Part shown: positions 30,605-36,750 of the stretch, in pieces
Numbering within the stretch: position 1 is the stretch's first letter
Layout: every line of letters starts with the position of its first letter
DNA from: Lachnospiraceae bacterium A4
GTDB taxonomy: Bacteria > Bacillota > Clostridia > Lachnospirales > Lachnospiraceae
Length of the DNA stretch: 37,301 bases
Assembly: GCA_000403215.2 (NCBI GenBank)
Contig: KE159527.1
Span: forward strand, 542,405 to 579,705
Direction of reading: 5' to 3'
Made by a program: the position numbers and the translations under genes
Notes under the pieces: model-generated
The model's input: only the letters and a program-made list of their open reading frames with translations
Databases searched by the model: none
Told to the model about the DNA's origin: nothing

Positions 30605-30645
30605 ATCCGAACCATCCTGTATCATAGAGTCAGGATGGCTCGGAT
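30605..30645 (-). terminator. Terminator at the end of IS66 tnpC
   Basis: A 15-bp stem with one G-U (30605-30619 with 30631-30645) is followed by TTTT on the minus strand. The tnpC stop codon (30632-30630) lies at the edge of the loop, so terminator and gene end overlap. Confidence 0.75.
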
Positions 30646-31250
30646 ATACTTTTATTACTATTCTTTTCAGGCTTACGGCAGTGTTCCGGGAGATTTGGCG
30701 ACCATGGAAGCAGGTCTTCACAAAAACTCCGGTCAGTGTCATCCATATGCTTTGGGATTTCTGTCAGGAGATATTCAAAGTATTCATATGGTCTCAGGTT
30801 ATTTGCTTTGGCTGTTTCGGCTATGCTGTATATGATGGCGCTTGATTTCGCTCCGGTAATGGTATCGATCATTACCCAGTTTTTCTTTCCAATACAGAAA
30901 CCACGGACCGACTGCTCGGCAGCGTTGTTGTCCATCGGAACCTCGCCGTCATCCAGAAATACTTTCAGGTATTTCTCTTGGTTGAGACAGTACATGAATC
31001 CTTCATGGGTTTTGCCTTTCTGAGGCACTTTGGGAATATTTTCACGCACCCATGTAAAATAAGCCTCCACCAGTGGTTTTACACTCAGACGGCGGCGGTT
31101 GTGTCTCTCCTGCGGGGAAAGATCCTTTAGCATTCTTTCTTCGCGGTATATGGCCTGTATCATTGTCAGTGCTAGGTACGCAAGGCTGTTTTTGCGCCTT
31201 GATTCCGGCAGCGCCTTGACTGCCTCGTCAAACCTGCGGCGTGAATGCGA
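30630..31250 (-). pseudogene. tnpC: IS66 transposase TnpC, C-terminal part
   Basis: The last 206 codons of tnpC. The frame reads from SerHis at the insertion point (31250-31245) through SRRRFDEAVKALPESRR to MDNNAAEQSVRGF, which holds the third catalytic residue (Glu) of the DDE triad, and GKKNWVMI. It is in frame with the N-terminal part once the inserted element and one 8-bp repeat are removed. No start codon with a ribosome binding site is present, so this part is silent at present. Confidence 0.9.
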
Positions 31251-31251
31251 C
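31244..31251. repeat. 8-bp direct repeat AATGCGAC, left flank of the RIT element
   Basis: The same 8 bases occur at 34717-34724. The neighbours differ on both sides, so the shared block is exactly 8 bp: target duplication or crossover region. Confidence 0.85.
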
Positions 31252-31274
31252 TTATTCGAGAACTGGAATAAGTC
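31249..31274. repeat. Palindromic core site at the left RIT end
   Basis: GACTTATTC (31249-31257) and GAATAAGTC (31266-31274) are perfect 9-bp inverted arms around the 8-bp asymmetric centre GAGAACTG (31258-31265). A 9-8-9 layout is what tyrosine recombinases use as a core site. The first three bases of the left arm are shared with the target. Confidence 0.85.
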
Positions 31275-31275
31275 C

Positions 31276-31300
31276 CATTATCCCAGAAGTATTGTTATTC
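31276..31300. repeat. RIT terminal inverted repeat, left
   Basis: 25 bases beginning CATTATCCCAG, exact complement of 34696-34720. CCAGAAG recurs just inside at 31300-31306. Confidence 0.95.
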
Positions 31301-31350
31301 CAGAAGCAAGTCTACATATGGCATAAATGTTGTTTTTTACAGCATATTTC

Positions 31351-31378
31351 TTGAATAATGATAGTGCTCTTTTACAAT
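31351..31378 (+). promoter_or_regulatory. Promoter of the RIT recombinase operon
   Basis: TTGAAT (31351-31356), a 16-bp spacer and TACAAT (31373-31378) lie 41 bp before the ritA ATG. AAAGGAGG follows at about 31407-31414. Confidence 0.6.
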
Positions 31379-31419
31379 GAAGATGTAACTAATTCATCTC
31401 ATTATAAAGGAGGTCTCAT

Positions 31420-32643
31420 ATGAGAAATACAATCTTACCATTCGATGAACTGATGAAAGCAGTTCTGGAGCAATTAAAATCTCAGAAATATATGGATTCA
31501 ACGTTGACCGTATATCGGCGAACCTACAATCGCATTCACATTTTTCTGAATCATCATGGCACGGACATATACACTCATGAATTAGGCAAAGCATTTCTTG
31601 CCGATTCAAATGTTAGCAAATCCACCTTTGTAGCTTATGCCTGTGCAGTACGAAGGCTGGATGACTACATTGACGGAAAACCTTACAGGTGCCATCATGG
31701 TGATTATAACGAACAGATTCCTCTGGTGTTTGCGGGCACTTTGTCTGGGTATCTTCAAGAATGCATAGATAATGGCAATAAACCGGCTACGATCTGCTCA
31801 AAAGAAAGGACCTGTATATCTTTTTTGAGCTTTGTGGAAAATGCTGGTTGTTCTGACCTTTCTCAATTAAACACCGGCATTGTATCACAGGCCCTGCTTA
31901 CATTCTCCAACAAGGATGCCTATGCACGTATCCGTCAGTTCCTGAATTACCTTGCTGAAAAAGGCATCCTAGAAGTGGATCTTTCCAGGATTGTTCCGCA
32001 CTATAAGAGAGGTACGGCGCTTCCCACGACATATACGCCAGATGAAATCAGCAGGGTCGAAGCTTCTGTTGATACCAATACTACTATTGGAAAGAGAAAC
32101 CTTGCTATCATCCGGCTGGCATCACGAATGGGACTCCGTGCAGGCGACATTGCAAAGCTTAAACTATCGGAAATCAACTTTAGTACGGGATACATCAGTA
32201 TAACCCAGGAAAAGACGGGGATACCTCTCACATTGCAAATGCCTTGTGAAGTTGTTAATGCCATTTCGATGCATCTTGGCAATGACAAATACTCTTTAGA
32301 AGACGGGTATGTATTTCATAGCCTGACGGCTCCGTATGGACGTATTACTACAAGCATAATACGACACGCTTTAAATGAATGCTTTGCTGCAGCAAATGTC
32401 AATACAGCAGGGAAAAAGCATGGTCCACATGCATTTCGGTCATCCCTTGCAAGTTCAATGGTAAACGATAATGCATCTTATGAGGTAGTCAGAAGAATCC
32501 TGGGACATTCAAATTCTGATGTTATCAAGCATTACGCTAAAGCAGATATTGAAAATCTGAGGATGTGTTCTATAGATCCTCCGATTCCTACAGGGATTTT
32601 CCGTGATTATCTTTCCGGCAAGGGGGTGGTCACCCATGTTTGA
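31420..32643 (+). CDS. ritA: RIT tyrosine recombinase A
   Basis: A 407-residue tyrosine site-specific recombinase. An N-terminal SAM-like core-binding domain (about 100-190) precedes the catalytic domain. All catalytic residues are visible: Arg240 (SRMGLRAGD), Lys265 (ITQEKTG), His337 and Arg340 (GPHAFR), His363 (ILGHSN) and nucleophile Tyr372 (IKHYAKAD). The ATG follows AAAGGAGG. The extra N-terminal part of about 90 residues makes it the longest of the three, as in RitA proteins. Its end overlaps ritB by 8 bp. It should act on the ends of this element together with the next two proteins. Confidence 0.93.
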   Translation: MRNTILPFDELMKAVLEQLKSQKYMDSTLTVYRRTYNRIHIFLNHHGTDIYTHELGKAFLADSNVSKSTFVAYACAVRRLDDYIDGKPYRCHHGDYNEQIPLVFAGTLSGYLQECIDNGNKPATICSKERTCISFLSFVENAGCSDLSQLNTGIVSQALLTFSNKDAYARIRQFLNYLAEKGILEVDLSRIVPHYKRGTALPTTYTPDEISRVEASVDTNTTIGKRNLAIIRLASRMGLRAGDIAKLKLSEINFSTGYISITQEKTGIPLTLQMPCEVVNAISMHLGNDKYSLEDGYVFHSLTAPYGRITTSIIRHALNECFAAANVNTAGKKHGPHAFRSSLASSMVNDNASYEVVRRILGHSNSDVIKHYAKADIENLRMCSIDPPIPTGIFRDYLSGKGVVTHV

Positions 32644-33613
32644 TAGTATTTATTCAGAACAGTTATCACAGTATTACGGTCTGCGTCAGGAAACATTGAG
32701 TGAAAGCGCAGGGAAACACGAATTATGCTATCTGCGCCGCTTTGATTCGTATGTTTCTGAACAGTTAGATTCCCCCGGACACATCACGGAAGATTTCATC
32801 AACCAATGGGTTGGTTCCCTTTCGGGAAAAAGCAGTTCTGTGGAGAATGAAATCATTGTAATACGACAGTTCCTGGAGTTTCTCAAGCATACCGGAGAAA
32901 ATGCTGCCATGCCTTCCATACCCAGGGTTCATGATGACTATGTCCCATATATCTTTAGTGATACGGAGTTGAATTGTATTTTCGAGTCTGCTGATAACAT
33001 CGTTCAAAAGGATCCAAAGGCTGATCCTTATCTGGTGATAGAGTTTCCGGTGATTCTCAGGCTTTTATACAGTTGTGGCCTTCGAATCGGTGAAACGGTC
33101 AAAATAAATATGAATGATGTAGATCTGGATGGCGGCATCCTCCGCCTTATAAACACAAAGGGCAATAAGCAGCGTTTAGTCCCGATGTCAGCGCCCATGA
33201 CAGATATTCTATACAAGTACTGCATGGCAATGAACCTTACCGGCAGAAACAACATATGGCTTTTCCCGTCCTCTAAAAATGAGGGACATATATCCGACAG
33301 ATCAGTAAAGCGCAGATTTGAGTACATTCTTCATAATAATGGCATTCAAGTCTATAGCCGAAAGAAACACGAGCGTGGTCCATGCCTGCATTGTATGCGC
33401 CATGTGTTTGCGTTTAAATCGTTTGCAAAGGCCGAACGGGAAGGAAGGCATCTTGATGACGCTGTCCCATTCTTGTCTGTTTATCTCGGACATGCAGGCA
33501 TTAATGAAACGGCCAAGTACCTAAAATTCAGTAATGAATTGTTTCCGGAGGCCATCGATTCCTTTGGCAGATTTATGAGCGACCTGCTTCCGGAGGTGGG
33601 CTATGAAGAATAA
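32636..33613 (+). CDS. ritB: RIT tyrosine recombinase B
   Basis: A 325-residue tyrosine recombinase. I start it at ATG 32636 (MFDSIYSEQ), after AAGGGGG and overlapping the ritA stop; the frame is open from a GTG at 32603 but without a ribosome binding site. Catalytic residues are complete: Arg150 (YSCGLRIGE), Lys175 (NTKGNKQ), His252 and Arg255 (LHCMRH), His286 (LGHAG) and Tyr295 (AKYLKFS). An 11-bp overlap with ritC implies coupled translation of all three proteins in fixed proportion. Confidence 0.92.
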   Translation: MFDSIYSEQLSQYYGLRQETLSESAGKHELCYLRRFDSYVSEQLDSPGHITEDFINQWVGSLSGKSSSVENEIIVIRQFLEFLKHTGENAAMPSIPRVHDDYVPYIFSDTELNCIFESADNIVQKDPKADPYLVIEFPVILRLLYSCGLRIGETVKINMNDVDLDGGILRLINTKGNKQRLVPMSAPMTDILYKYCMAMNLTGRNNIWLFPSSKNEGHISDRSVKRRFEYILHNNGIQVYSRKKHERGPCLHCMRHVFAFKSFAKAEREGRHLDDAVPFLSVYLGHAGINETAKYLKFSNELFPEAIDSFGRFMSDLLPEVGYEE

Positions 33614-34625
33614 AAAAATTTCCTTCATGAATCACCTTGAGTGTTATTTCAATACATATTTACCAACTGTAAAGGGCTTATCACAATCAACGATAGTTTC
33701 GTATAAAGCAACATTCCGTATACTCATGGAATTCTTATATACAGTAAAAGGTATTCCCTCTGATAAGGTGGAGTTCAGTACCCTTGATGATAAGTTGATC
33801 ATGGAGTTCTTAAGCTGGTTGGAAACAGAGCGAAGCTGCAGTGTCAGCACCAGAAACCAGAGGCTCTCTGCTATTGCAGCATTCTCGATATATGCACAGA
33901 ATAGAGATTTTGGTTCAGCAGTTACTTTCAGAAACTGTGTACTAAAAGTTCCAAAGAAGAAAGCGCCCCGCAAAGGCAGAAGCTCATTCACAAGGGATGA
34001 AGTCAAGACTCTATTCGGATTACCCGATTCAAGTAATGAAATCGGATTAAGAGACAAGACTTTGCTGTGTTTTATGTATGCTAGCGGGACAAGGGCACAG
34101 GAGGTATGTGATTTAACAGTTGGGAATATCCAGTTCTATCCTGATCGAGCCGGTATCAACATACATGGTAAAGGTCAAAAGGTGCGCCGTATAGGTATTC
34201 CATGTGATGCTTCAAATATGTTGAAGAAGTATATTGAACATCGTAGAATAATCAATGATACAGAGCGGCATGTGTTCTCAAGTCAGACACATGAGAAGAT
34301 GTCAGTTTCCTGTATTGAGGAAATATACTCCAAGTACATTGAGAAGGCAAAACAAGAGTATCCTGAAATGTTCAGATATCATTACACGCCACATTCCATG
34401 AGGCATACTACTGCCACCCATATGATTGAAGCAGGGGTTCCTCTTATTGTGGTTAAGAACTTTCTCGGGCATGTATCCTTGCAGACCACTCAGATATATA
34501 CAGAGATAACGCAGGATACCATGAACAAACAGCTTAAATCGTGGAATGACAAATGGTTTCTCAAGGATAATTCTCATTTTGAAAACACGAATGGCAAAAG
34601 TAATATACCGGAATTCTTAAGGTAA
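33603..34625 (+). CDS. ritC: RIT tyrosine recombinase C
   Basis: A 340-residue XerC/D-like tyrosine recombinase with GGAGGTGGGCT before its ATG. The N-terminal helical domain (about 10-105) contains QSTIVSYKATFRILMEFL. Catalytic residues: Arg164 (ASGTRAQE), Lys190 (HGKGQK), His264 and Arg267 (PHSMRH), His290 (FLGHVS) and Tyr299 (QIYTEIT). It is the last gene of the trio, and its stop lies only 28 bp from the structured right end of the element. Confidence 0.93.
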   Translation: MKNKKISFMNHLECYFNTYLPTVKGLSQSTIVSYKATFRILMEFLYTVKGIPSDKVEFSTLDDKLIMEFLSWLETERSCSVSTRNQRLSAIAAFSIYAQNRDFGSAVTFRNCVLKVPKKKAPRKGRSSFTRDEVKTLFGLPDSSNEIGLRDKTLLCFMYASGTRAQEVCDLTVGNIQFYPDRAGINIHGKGQKVRRIGIPCDASNMLKKYIEHRRIINDTERHVFSSQTHEKMSVSCIEEIYSKYIEKAKQEYPEMFRYHYTPHSMRHTTATHMIEAGVPLIVVKNFLGHVSLQTTQIYTEITQDTMNKQLKSWNDKWFLKDNSHFENTNGKSNIPEFLR

Positions 34626-34649
34626 AAGTAGTTATTGTTATTCGGGATT

Positions 34650-34672
34650 TAAATCGGAGAACTGCCGATTTA
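34650..34672. repeat. Second palindrome containing the shared core, right RIT end
   Basis: TAAATCGG (34650-34657) and CCGATTTA (34665-34672) are perfect inverted arms around AGAACTG (34658-34664). With the preceding G the centre reads GAGAACTG, identical to the centre of the left-end palindrome although the arms differ. Confidence 0.85.
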
Positions 34673-34693
34673 CGCTGATGTTGGCAGTTCTCC
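34656..34693. repeat. 11-bp inverted repeat at the right RIT end
   Basis: GGAGAACTGCC (34656-34666) is the exact complement of 34683-34693, with 16 bases between. It shares its first arm with the palindrome at 34650-34672, so the two hairpins exclude each other. No T-run follows, so it is not an evident terminator. Confidence 0.85.
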
Positions 34694-34695
34694 TA

Positions 34696-34720
34696 GAATA
34701 ACAATACTTCTGGGATAATG
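34696..34720. repeat. RIT terminal inverted repeat, right
   Basis: Exact complement of 31276-31300 (25 bases). Its last four bases are also the start of the 8-bp flank repeat. ATTGTTATTC from the repeat recurs inside at 34634-34643. Confidence 0.95.
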
Positions 34721-34724
34721 CGAC
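34717..34724. repeat. 8-bp direct repeat AATGCGAC, right flank of the RIT element
   Basis: Second copy of the block at 31244-31251. On the minus strand it supplies codons Ser341 and His342 of tnpC. Confidence 0.85.
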
Positions 34725-35743
34725 CAGCAGCCAGCTATTGTCAGGTCTTCCCGTTCATTTTCAATCGTATGATAGACCTGGTATCCGTCCGTGACGCATA
34801 CACCACTGAAGCCTTTCAGGAATTCCCGCAGATGGCTGGCATTTCGCGTCTTCTGGTATTCGTACAGAACAATCTGCCTGCCGCTGTACATGCTGCCGGT
34901 GCGGTATACCCACATATAACTCTTTGCCCCTGCAGTGCGTCCGTCCTTATTTACAAGGACAGGTGTCTCGTCCGCCTGCAGTACATGATATGCGTACATC
35001 ATTTCATGAAGGTAATCATACAGGACTGCAAGGTACCTGTCTGCACACTGGATCGTCCAGTATGCCATATTCTGGCGGGAGACAGTGATCCCGTAACGCT
35101 CAAATTCCTTTTCCTGGCGGTAGAGGGGGCAGGCATTCACATATTTGGCATTTATGATTGCAGCTTCCATGGACGGGGATACCAGGCTGCCTTTAAGCAG
35201 GCATACCGGATGCTCTGCCCTGACGATGGCGTCATCCGTCTTTGCGGCATATACAGCGACATGGTGTTCCTCGACCTCTACTTTTGCCGGGGTGAACCTG
35301 TACCTGCGGTAAACCTCGTCGGGGAGGCGTTTGTATCCGTCCGTCCCGAATGTATCTGAAAGCTGTTCTTCCGTCATGGAATGTTCTATGATAATAACGG
35401 GGAGTCCGTCCAGATCTTCTTCGCGTTTTCCCTTTTTCTTTTTGGGAGTCCTGCGTCTGGGCGCTTCCTGCGTTTCGTTTTCAGCCTCCTGGTCTGTTAC
35501 GGCTTCAGGTTCATTGAAAAATACGATCTCCCCGTCAACTTCCATGAAAGACACCTGCCCTTCTGTCAGGTGTCTTTCCGTTGACCTGCCAAAACGGTGT
35601 CTTTTCTGGTCGGCAAGGTGCTCCAGCACGAGCTGCAGGTTTTTATCTATATTTTCCAGCTGCTCCTGCTGTGCAAGAAACAGACGGATGATTGTTCCTT
35701 TTTCCATACCGGAAAGCATTTCTTCCGTATATCTGGATTCCAT
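34718..35743 (-). pseudogene. tnpC: IS66 transposase TnpC, N-terminal part
   Basis: The first 342 codons of the IS66 DDE transposase. An N-terminal coiled coil (about 20-45) and a Lys/Arg-rich stretch (RRRTPKKKKGKRE, about 96-108) are followed by the catalytic core with Asp258 (LQADETP) and Asp319 (VCVTDGYQVY). The gene is cut after AGCWSH by the RIT element; translation continues 16 codons into the right RIT end and stops at 34670. The third catalytic Glu lies on the other fragment, so the transposase is inactive. Joined across one 8-bp repeat the two parts give 546 residues without a frameshift, a normal TnpC length. Confidence 0.93.
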
Positions 35744-36020: not shown

Positions 36021-36383
36021 TCATCCCATGTATTCCGGCGGCTTTACAGTCCTGACGGAATTTTTAGGAGTGATTGTAAGTCCCTCCATCAGCCAGCGGA
36101 ACTGCTGCTGTGTAAGCTCCCGTACTTCGTCCGCGCTGCGCGGCCACTGGAACCTGCTCCCTGCAAGTCTCTTATACAGCATTAGCCAGCCGTCTTTCTC
36201 CCACACCAGTCCCTTGATGCGGTCTGCACGCCTGCCGCAGAAGAGATACAGGGTGTCCGGCACATAAGGGGTGCTGCCTGTCTGTGCTTCGAGGACTGCC
36301 GCAAGGCTGTCTATTCCCGAACGCAGGTCTGTATATCCGCACACAATGTATACGGCTTTAAAGCATACAGCGTCATTGAGCAT
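36021..36383 (-). CDS. tnpB: IS66 family accessory protein TnpB
   Basis: A 120-residue protein of the IS66 Orf2 family, needed with TnpA and TnpC for transposition; its biochemical role is unclear. It has the family motifs CGYTDLRSGIDSLA, LYLFCGRRADRIKGLVWEKD and GWLMLYKRL, then RFQWPRS. The ATG at 36383 has GGAGG nine bases upstream; the frame is open to 36404 without a better start. It overlaps tnpA by 11 bp, suggesting coupled translation. Confidence 0.93.
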   Translation of the reverse strand: MLNDAVCFKAVYIVCGYTDLRSGIDSLAAVLEAQTGSTPYVPDTLYLFCGRRADRIKGLVWEKDGWLMLYKRLAGSRFQWPRSADEVRELTQQQFRWLMEGLTITPKNSVRTVKPPEYMG

Positions 36384-36750
36384 TGCGGACCACCTCCAGG
36401 ACATCAGACAGGAGCTTCATGGAAGAAGATTCCATTACATGAATGCAGATCCCGTTGAGGGACAGCTCCAGTCCGCGTGAAGATATGGCAGGGGTGTTAT
36501 TTTCCTGAAAGGACAAAAATTCTGATGGTACGGGTATAACCTGACGCCCTGCAGTTTCCTCCGGGAACTGTTCAAGACATGCCGCCCTGACACGGCGCAG
36601 CCGGTAGTAATAATTGGCCTTTGTTATACCATTACGGGAACACCATTCGATGACACTCATTCCTTCGGCACGGTTTTGGCAGTCCCTGATTTGTTCTGCC
36701 CATTCCCTGAGGCGGCACTGCTGCGCAGCCAGGCTTGTTTCTGAAACCAT
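36373..36750 (-). CDS. tnpA: IS66 family accessory protein TnpA
   Basis: A 125-residue protein of the IS66 Orf1 family with a predicted helix-turn-helix: MSVIEWCSRNGITKANYYYR with RLRRVRAA after it. This is the Orf1 pattern of recent clostridial IS66 elements. The ATG at 36750 follows AAGGAGG. It is the first gene of the element. A perfect 12-bp hairpin lies in its leader just upstream of the ribosome binding site. Confidence 0.9.
   Translation of the reverse strand: MVSETSLAAQQCRLREWAEQIRDCQNRAEGMSVIEWCSRNGITKANYYYRLRRVRAACLEQFPEETAGRQVIPVPSEFLSFQENNTPAISSRGLELSLNGICIHVMESSSMKLLSDVLEVVRNAQ

Follow-up and report, generated by a model that had tools for sequence, protein, structure and literature searches.

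A RIT element inside an IS66 tnpC gene

The 37,301-nt stretch of Lachnospiraceae bacterium A4 analysed here (the window; assembly GCA_000403215.2, contig KE159527.1, positions 542,405–579,705 of the forward strand) contains a recombinase in trio (RIT) element, whose ends and attachment site are our subject. The element lies inside an IS66 tnpC gene at codons C-W-[Ser/Ala]-His (C-W-Ser-His here); its left end is at 31246, its right end at 34724 and its length is 3.46–3.48 kb. It carries three consecutive overlapping tyrosine recombinase genes on the + strand, in the order A-B-C and each with a PF00589 match: ritA (31420..32643, 407 aa, 1.2e-22), ritB (32636..33613, 325 aa, 7e-18, assigned also by its start) and ritC (33603..34625, 340 aa, 8.6e-35). 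The R..H-x-x-R..H..Y motif was found in RitA, RitB and RitC by pattern match rather than by alignment to a solved enzyme. The ritA/ritB overlap is 8 bp and the ritB/ritC overlap 11 bp, the latter slightly above the 4–8 bp given in published passages on RIT recombinase genes (PMC3414803). Terminal inverted repeats of 35 nt with 91% identity bound the element; a repeat search and the line-up of ends place the left terminal repeat, TTATCCCAGAAGTATTGTTATTC, at 31278..31300 (+) and the right one at 34696..34718 (–). Besides this copy, the window's genome contains one more complete copy (L002) and an orphan end (L005). In gene number, overlap, length (~3.5 kb) and terminal repeats (~34 bp), the element resembles the RIT archetypes, which are described from Cupriavidus metallidurans CH34 and C. 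necator pHG1 in PMC3414803 and PMC2864759.

Between the terminal repeats, the three recombinases are the only coding-strand open reading frames (ORFs) of at least 90 aa; none of these encodes an accessory Srap, GinD or TnpC protein of the SE, GInt or Tn554 type, and shorter ORFs were not searched for the Srap family. The interrupted tnpC runs on the – strand. Its 5′ half (34725..35743; PF03050, 4.8e-45) ends in AGCW-S, and its 3′ half (30630..31251; PF03050, 9.2e-24, and PF13817) starts with S-H-S-R-R-R-F, both halves being in frame. An uninterrupted IS66 tnpC in locus L060 is ~91% identical to the joined window flanks, with a masked run of N just 5′ of the site.

The joined ends form a palindrome with two predicted mirror-image core sites

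An 8-bp sequence, AATGCGAC, is present twice, at 31244–31251 and 34717–34724. An earlier note on this DNA had predicted that recombination between these copies would join 34696–34724 to 31252–31300 in a circle, with a palindromic junction. We recovered this palindrome as described: outer arms of 25 bp, one mismatch, inner arms of 9 bp and the centre GAGAACTG, with 34 of 35 arm pairs matching. Its dyad is the top one of the joined sequence (40/45, the runner-up scoring 21/45), and its symmetry is indeed improbable by chance, since 36/39 pairs matched at the joined ends compared with a maximum of 27/39 in 2000 joins of random window positions. The palindrome is real, but much of its symmetry comes from the terminal inverted repeats. 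Any element with such repeats will have a palindromic circle junction, and thus only the inner stem and its register are informative. It was also stated that neither integrated end is symmetrical alone; this is true for the 25-bp outer arms, which need the join, but not for the inner stem GACTTATTC-GAGAACTG-GAATAAGTC, which lies wholly within the left end (31249–31274).

The left end is divided as follows. An outer 6-bp crossover block (S_out; 31246..31251, TGCGAC on the + strand, GTCGCA in the sense of tnpC on the – strand), positioned by comparison of 24 elements, adjoins the tnpC 3′ half and is a direct repeat of the block at the right end (34719..34724, also TGCGAC on the + strand and read on the – strand), which adjoins the tnpC 5′ half. 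Next come TTAT (31252..31255), the inner arm of core site 1, the 12-bp centre TCGAGAACTGGA (31256..31267), which contains GAGAACTG, and ATAA (31268..31271), the inner arm of core site 2, both arms being placed by stem comparison. An inner block (S_in; 31272..31277, GTCCCA), a mirror copy of the crossover block one base off the present target, leads into the terminal repeat; these last four features are given on the + strand. On this sequence comparison, GAGAACTG is the middle of a 12-bp spacer between predicted mirror-image core sites (ATAA-N6-TTAT in the window) and not the crossover. The extra AA of the 8-bp repeat is a chance match: on the left it belongs to the target, on the right to the terminal repeat. 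The palindrome's sole mismatch, GTCC inside against GTCG outside, affects the third position of the Ser codon and falls within the exchanged 6-bp block; it looks like a trace of an earlier target codon (TCC as against the present TCG).

The stem follows the target, not the element

A search of 98 genomes of relatives revealed full copies of the element in one other genome (G010), while G029 and G093 gave partial matches only, at 65–66%. A contig search with RitC yielded 16 loci, three of them the G010 copies, and the terminal-repeat pattern occurred in 1 of 397 family genomes, the window's own. No RitA relatives turned up in viral contigs. Identical and 96–98% identical copies stand at different sites and in different orientations, which bears on mobility indirectly.

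When the copies are lined up, two types of end are seen. A bare end reads target-GNCNCA-TTAT.., and a stem end reads target-N6-TTAT-12 bp-ATAA-N6-TTAT... The type of end is set by the side of the target: all 28 ends from 15 loci obey this rule, the 12 that abut the tnpC 5′ half being bare and the 16 that abut the 3′ half having a stem (the right end of L020 has only 8 nt of flank, and not all ends are independent, since L028 and L029 share a right flank and a single genome contributes L020, L024 and L031). Chimeric flanks still follow it: L002, L023 and L029, each with a 3′ half on both sides, carry two stems, and L025, with a 5′ half on both sides, carries none. The flanks of these four loci suggest that element copies recombined with one another and so shuffled their IS66 hosts. 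L030 has a second RIT-like end of a different kind, with terminal repeat and stem, at positions 100–200, near the contig start.

In copies flanked by one 5′ and one 3′ half, the stem is on the ritA side (left) in L001, L022 and L024 and on the ritC side (right) in L020, L021, L028, L030, L031 and L033. Being found on either side of the element yet always on the same side of the target, the stem follows the target. The direction of the centre relative to the element is constant in 14 of the 16 stems, in both orientation classes. A rigid circle with two usable mirror sites would predict this constancy, whereas inversion in place would flip the centre.

The predicted strand exchange falls within a 6-bp block

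The predicted excision point is supported by these comparisons and narrowed to the 6-bp block TGCGAC (31246–31251 and 34719–34724). L023, L029 and L033 retain CAC as the target His codon on the 3′ side, while bare ends invariably read CATT, which confines the exchanged block to the 6 bp GNCNCA. To locate it in other elements we compared the bare end with the inner side of the stem end as a function of the distance d from the dyad axis, a measure that avoids part of the by-eye choice of the terminal-repeat start. In 24 two-ended elements, the two matched at 43/240 positions for d = 1–10, at 124/144 for d = 11–16 and at 372/384 for d = 17–32. The two copies of the block match each other at 120/144 positions in the same elements. 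The inner block can be of another codon type than the target, as at the left ends of L023 (GTCCCA inside, GGCGCA outside) and L029 (GTCGCA inside, GGCCCA outside), from which we infer that such blocks are records of a former target.

The same geometry in other RIT families

A plasmid search with RitC identified RIT trios at ~33% identity. Salipiger plasmids carry five copies in an IS110 transposase, four one way round and one opposite; in every one of them the stem lies towards the 5′ side of IS110. The same layout was seen in further loci. The palindromic attachment site put forward in the earlier note is supported by related copies, which show the same symmetry where their ends could be resolved. 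Across the centre lengths of 0–60 that were tried, complementarity was highest at 12 bp in all 26 tabulated stems. In a blind scan, 14 of 22 loci scored 23 or more and were accepted, with 60 shuffled controls peaking at 18.25; the other eight were L049, L052, L053, L062, L064, L065, L067 and L069, of which L049 scored above the null yet looks false.

RitA relatives were detected in 21 of 391 genomes of the class Clostridia (E ≤ 1e-20). There, 17 of 25 loci scored at least 18.5 (null maximum 18.25), and 15 were left after L104 and L120 were discarded as false by eye; the ten loci set aside comprise these two, L105, L108, L111, L112, L114, L119 and L121 below the threshold, and L124, in which no recombinase ORF was found. 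In the profile of the 17 loci, the ends match at 54/170 (d = 1–10), 89/102 (d = 11–16) and 258/272 (d = 17–32) positions. Many centres in Clostridia are perfect palindromes, for example GGAAAGCTTTCC and CCCGAATTCGGG. A single criterion applied to 46 RIT loci from plasmids and Clostridia found a 12-bp centre in 30, and odd centre lengths of 5–19 gave 0–2 matches; since the criteria differ, this count of 30 includes L112, L114 and L120 and omits L071 and L115.

The window's genome also holds a second, distant RIT family (RitA 27% identical; G000:C34:47286-48443 and G000:C39:249615-250772, loci L113 and L114). L113 has the same stem geometry and lies within a PD-(D/E)XK transposase-like gene. The RITs of L059 (4735–9288) and L058 (pHG1) are nested in tyrosine recombinase genes, and the copy at record position 131433 is bare on both sides, each time at S-I-T-P-H-T-L-R-H.

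A proposed mechanism and its alternatives

We consider it probable that this element moves as a circle carrying two complete tyrosine-recombinase core sites in mirror orientation, one of which is used per insertion. The geometry, the target position, the side rule, the occurrence of both orientations and the restored reading frames are read from aligned sequences; the circle, strand exchange by RitA, RitB and RitC, and excision are what we would deduce from them. The circle junction would read [GGATAA-N6-TTAT]-12 bp-[ATAA-N6-TTATCC], and at integration one of its two 6-bp blocks would recombine with its counterpart in the target. The core site left unused would then remain, together with the 12-bp centre, as a stem at one end, leaving the opposite end bare. 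The mirror symmetry of the blocks would allow the element to enter a directional target either way round while the stem stays on one side of that target. Recombination of the outer with the bare-end block would restore target and circle, the inner block would retain the sequence of an earlier target, and recombination of the inner with the bare-end block would invert the element where it stands. One might guess that the third recombinase binds the 12-bp centre. The off-centre position of the crossover block, which had been thought odd for a tyrosine recombinase, is accounted for by two mirror-image core sites with one used per insertion.

Several observations weigh against this mechanism. The match between S_out and the bare-end block (S_bare) is poor in four elements (Sphingobium 3/6, Alisedimentitalea 4/6, Paracoccus 4/6 and S. 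meliloti 2/6), so block homology is not always needed. The centre is flipped in two stems, L022 and L033. In the table of 26 stems the terminal-repeat start was picked by eye, and many elements are related, so that counts are not independent. Among the 46 loci, even neighbours of the 12-bp centre also score (28 at centre 10 and 18 at centre 14), as expected from the nesting of palindromes, odd lengths of 21 and 23 gave 7 and 6 matches, and 16 loci had no such structure under the criterion used. Finally, the exact circle-junction pattern had no match in viral contigs, and for the predicted junctions of two other RITs, 0 of 14 and 0 of 5 matching plasmid records covered 80%.

The palindrome could instead act as a folded single strand, like integron attC, its hairpin pairing the mirror blocks into one double-stranded core site of which one strand is exchanged. 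This would fit the complementarity of the 4-bp inner arms in all 26 stems despite their varying sequence (TTAT/ATAA, TAAT/ATTA, TTTT/AAAA, CTAT/ATAG, AAAT/ATTT, TTAA/TTAA), as well as the strand-biased copying reported for related SE elements in published passages (PMC10214605). However, dyad-symmetric protein sites account equally well for arm pairing; moreover, pairing within the centre ranges from 2 to 6 of 6 and that of the blocks goes down to 2/6 (L071), and we regard a folded substrate as unlikely. The stem might also be fixed to one end, with insertion in one way only and opposite orientations arising when the element inverts in place by recombination of its inner and bare-end blocks. 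The flipped centres of L022 and L033 would be expected from such inversion. As the main source of the orientations it is rejected, since unflipped centres occur in both stem-left (L001, L024) and stem-right (L020, L021, L028, L030, L031) copies and Salipiger copies in both orientations (L043 and L045–L047 as against L044) keep the centre direction; we therefore judge this alternative improbable.

The inverted arms around an 8-bp asymmetric centre give the site a Cre-type look, and GAGAACTG had been proposed as an asymmetric core. Yet a Cre-like crossover within it, or within the 12-bp centre, is refuted by the switch between target and element, which falls at d = 11–16, outside the centre: the crossover blocks lie 11–16 bp from the dyad axis in all 24 two-ended elements. 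In the IS66 set, none of the target flanks meets the element at the centre, and asymmetry is no requirement, given that the centre is a perfect palindrome (6/6 centre pairs) in 7 of 26 stems, from several other RIT families. Such a crossover thus has next to no likelihood. Cut-and-paste by an unseen DDE transposase, with AATGCGAC as an 8-bp target duplication, would explain the direct repeat at the element ends, but not why the site is codon-specific in all copies compared, why a stem stands at one end and none at the other, or why the retained CAC codon delimits a block of 6 bp, not 8. The long ORFs of the element being three tyrosine recombinases only, we reject this origin of the repeat and consider DDE transposition exceedingly improbable.

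Target genes and codons

The target frame is continuous through a single copy of the block in the IS66 group, in other RIT families and in Clostridia loci. In targets identified by Pfam and with a restored frame, the insertion motifs are Y-V-K-P-F/V-K in IS110, T-G-T-P-Q/G-G in the group II intron reverse transcriptase, I-F/H-S-D in an rve transposase, V-P-D-N in IS21-type transposases and P-H-S/L-R-H in a tyrosine recombinase; a P-loop NTPase of strawberry-notch type and the IS66 C-terminal element are targets of the same standing. ArdC is entered at H-E-L-T/H-W, and the pHG1 copies in tyrosine recombinases, judged by translation only, lie at T-T-E-R-Y-L-G and S-I-T-P-H-T-L-R-H. For two of 12 targets (Phaeobacter and pHG1 51476) the frames are likely frames only.

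In Clostridia, the frame is restored in 10 of 15 loci, and no continuous target ORF was found in L103, L115, L116, L125 and L126. Mobile-element targets there include IstB, IS66 (C-D-E/T), IS21, IS200 (Y1_Tnp), Mutator-family transposase (F-M-D-A-I) and rve (F-V/D-N) genes, together with a PD-(D/E)XK transposase-like gene (a weak match, below the cut-off). Nudix, TetR-type (just below the cut-off) and actin-like (ParM-like) genes are also hit, and the notion that RITs target mobile-element genes only was dropped on this account. RIT targets are mostly, not solely, genes of mobile elements.

Relation to known systems

Published passages place RITs in IS66 tnpA, radC and a Tn6049-type transposase (PMC2864759, PMC3414803), describe two CB domains in RitA and an additional C-terminal helix in RitC (PMC8138268), and do not settle the target specificity or the mechanism (PMC10214605, PMC2864759, PMC8138268, PMC5385486, PMC3414803). 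None of these passages on the archetypes mentions a mirrored double core site, a side rule or target codons particular to each family. In the literature searched we found no description of a mirrored double core site or of RIT attachment sites; Ricker et al. 2013 and Van Houdt et al. 2009 may describe part. Parallels lie in SE elements, with a 6-bp exchange and a 6-bp donor-site sequence carried into the next site (PMC10214605), and in GInts, for which 6-nt staggered cuts are suggested (PMC5385486). The string ‘palindrom’ occurs in neither paper, nor does ‘inverted repeat’ occur in the one on GInts. Like RITs, SE, GInt and Tn554-type elements combine several tyrosine recombinases with a 6-bp exchange, as far as the published passages go. 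Unlike RITs, they encode an extra non-recombinase protein (Srap, GinD or TnpC).

Integron attC sites of cassettes are imperfect palindromes with an unpaired centre, mostly retained at one end of the integrated unit, as is the RIT stem. In RITs, by contrast, each arm holds a full core site, the palindrome extends at either side into a 23-bp terminal repeat, and a coding motif serves as target. Coupling sequences of Tn916-type elements keep a memory of the previous insertion site beside one end, and RITs would do likewise; the RIT memory would differ in residing in the unused mirror core site and in resembling the present target, because all targets share the same codons.

We lean towards the view that the RIT class as a whole uses mirrored core sites with a fixed 12-bp spacer, which would separate directional 6-bp target choice from free orientation, leave a record of the previous target and permit flipping in place. 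Each family would be tuned to a conserved motif, most often in a transposase, recombinase or reverse-transcriptase gene of mobile elements, making RITs largely parasites of transposons. What a single transposon needs three tyrosine recombinases for has been an open question ever since RITs received their name, and a double mirrored core site with a fixed spacer offers a concrete substrate: two core sites and a centre possibly bound by the third recombinase. It makes testable predictions on circle, orientation and memory, and the geometry provides a rule for finding RIT ends and targets automatically. It also suggests that RITs form a class of elements which, for the most part, inactivate other mobile elements at conserved codons.

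Neighbouring features

On the outer side of the tnpC 5′ half lies an intact-looking tnpB (36021–36404, PF05717), followed by a small ORF (36373–36750) with no Pfam match. Just inside the right terminal repeat, an inverted repeat GGAGAACTGCC..GGCAGTTCTCC (34656–34693) shares the word AGAACTG with the 12-bp centre; it may be a further recombinase site or the terminator of ritC.

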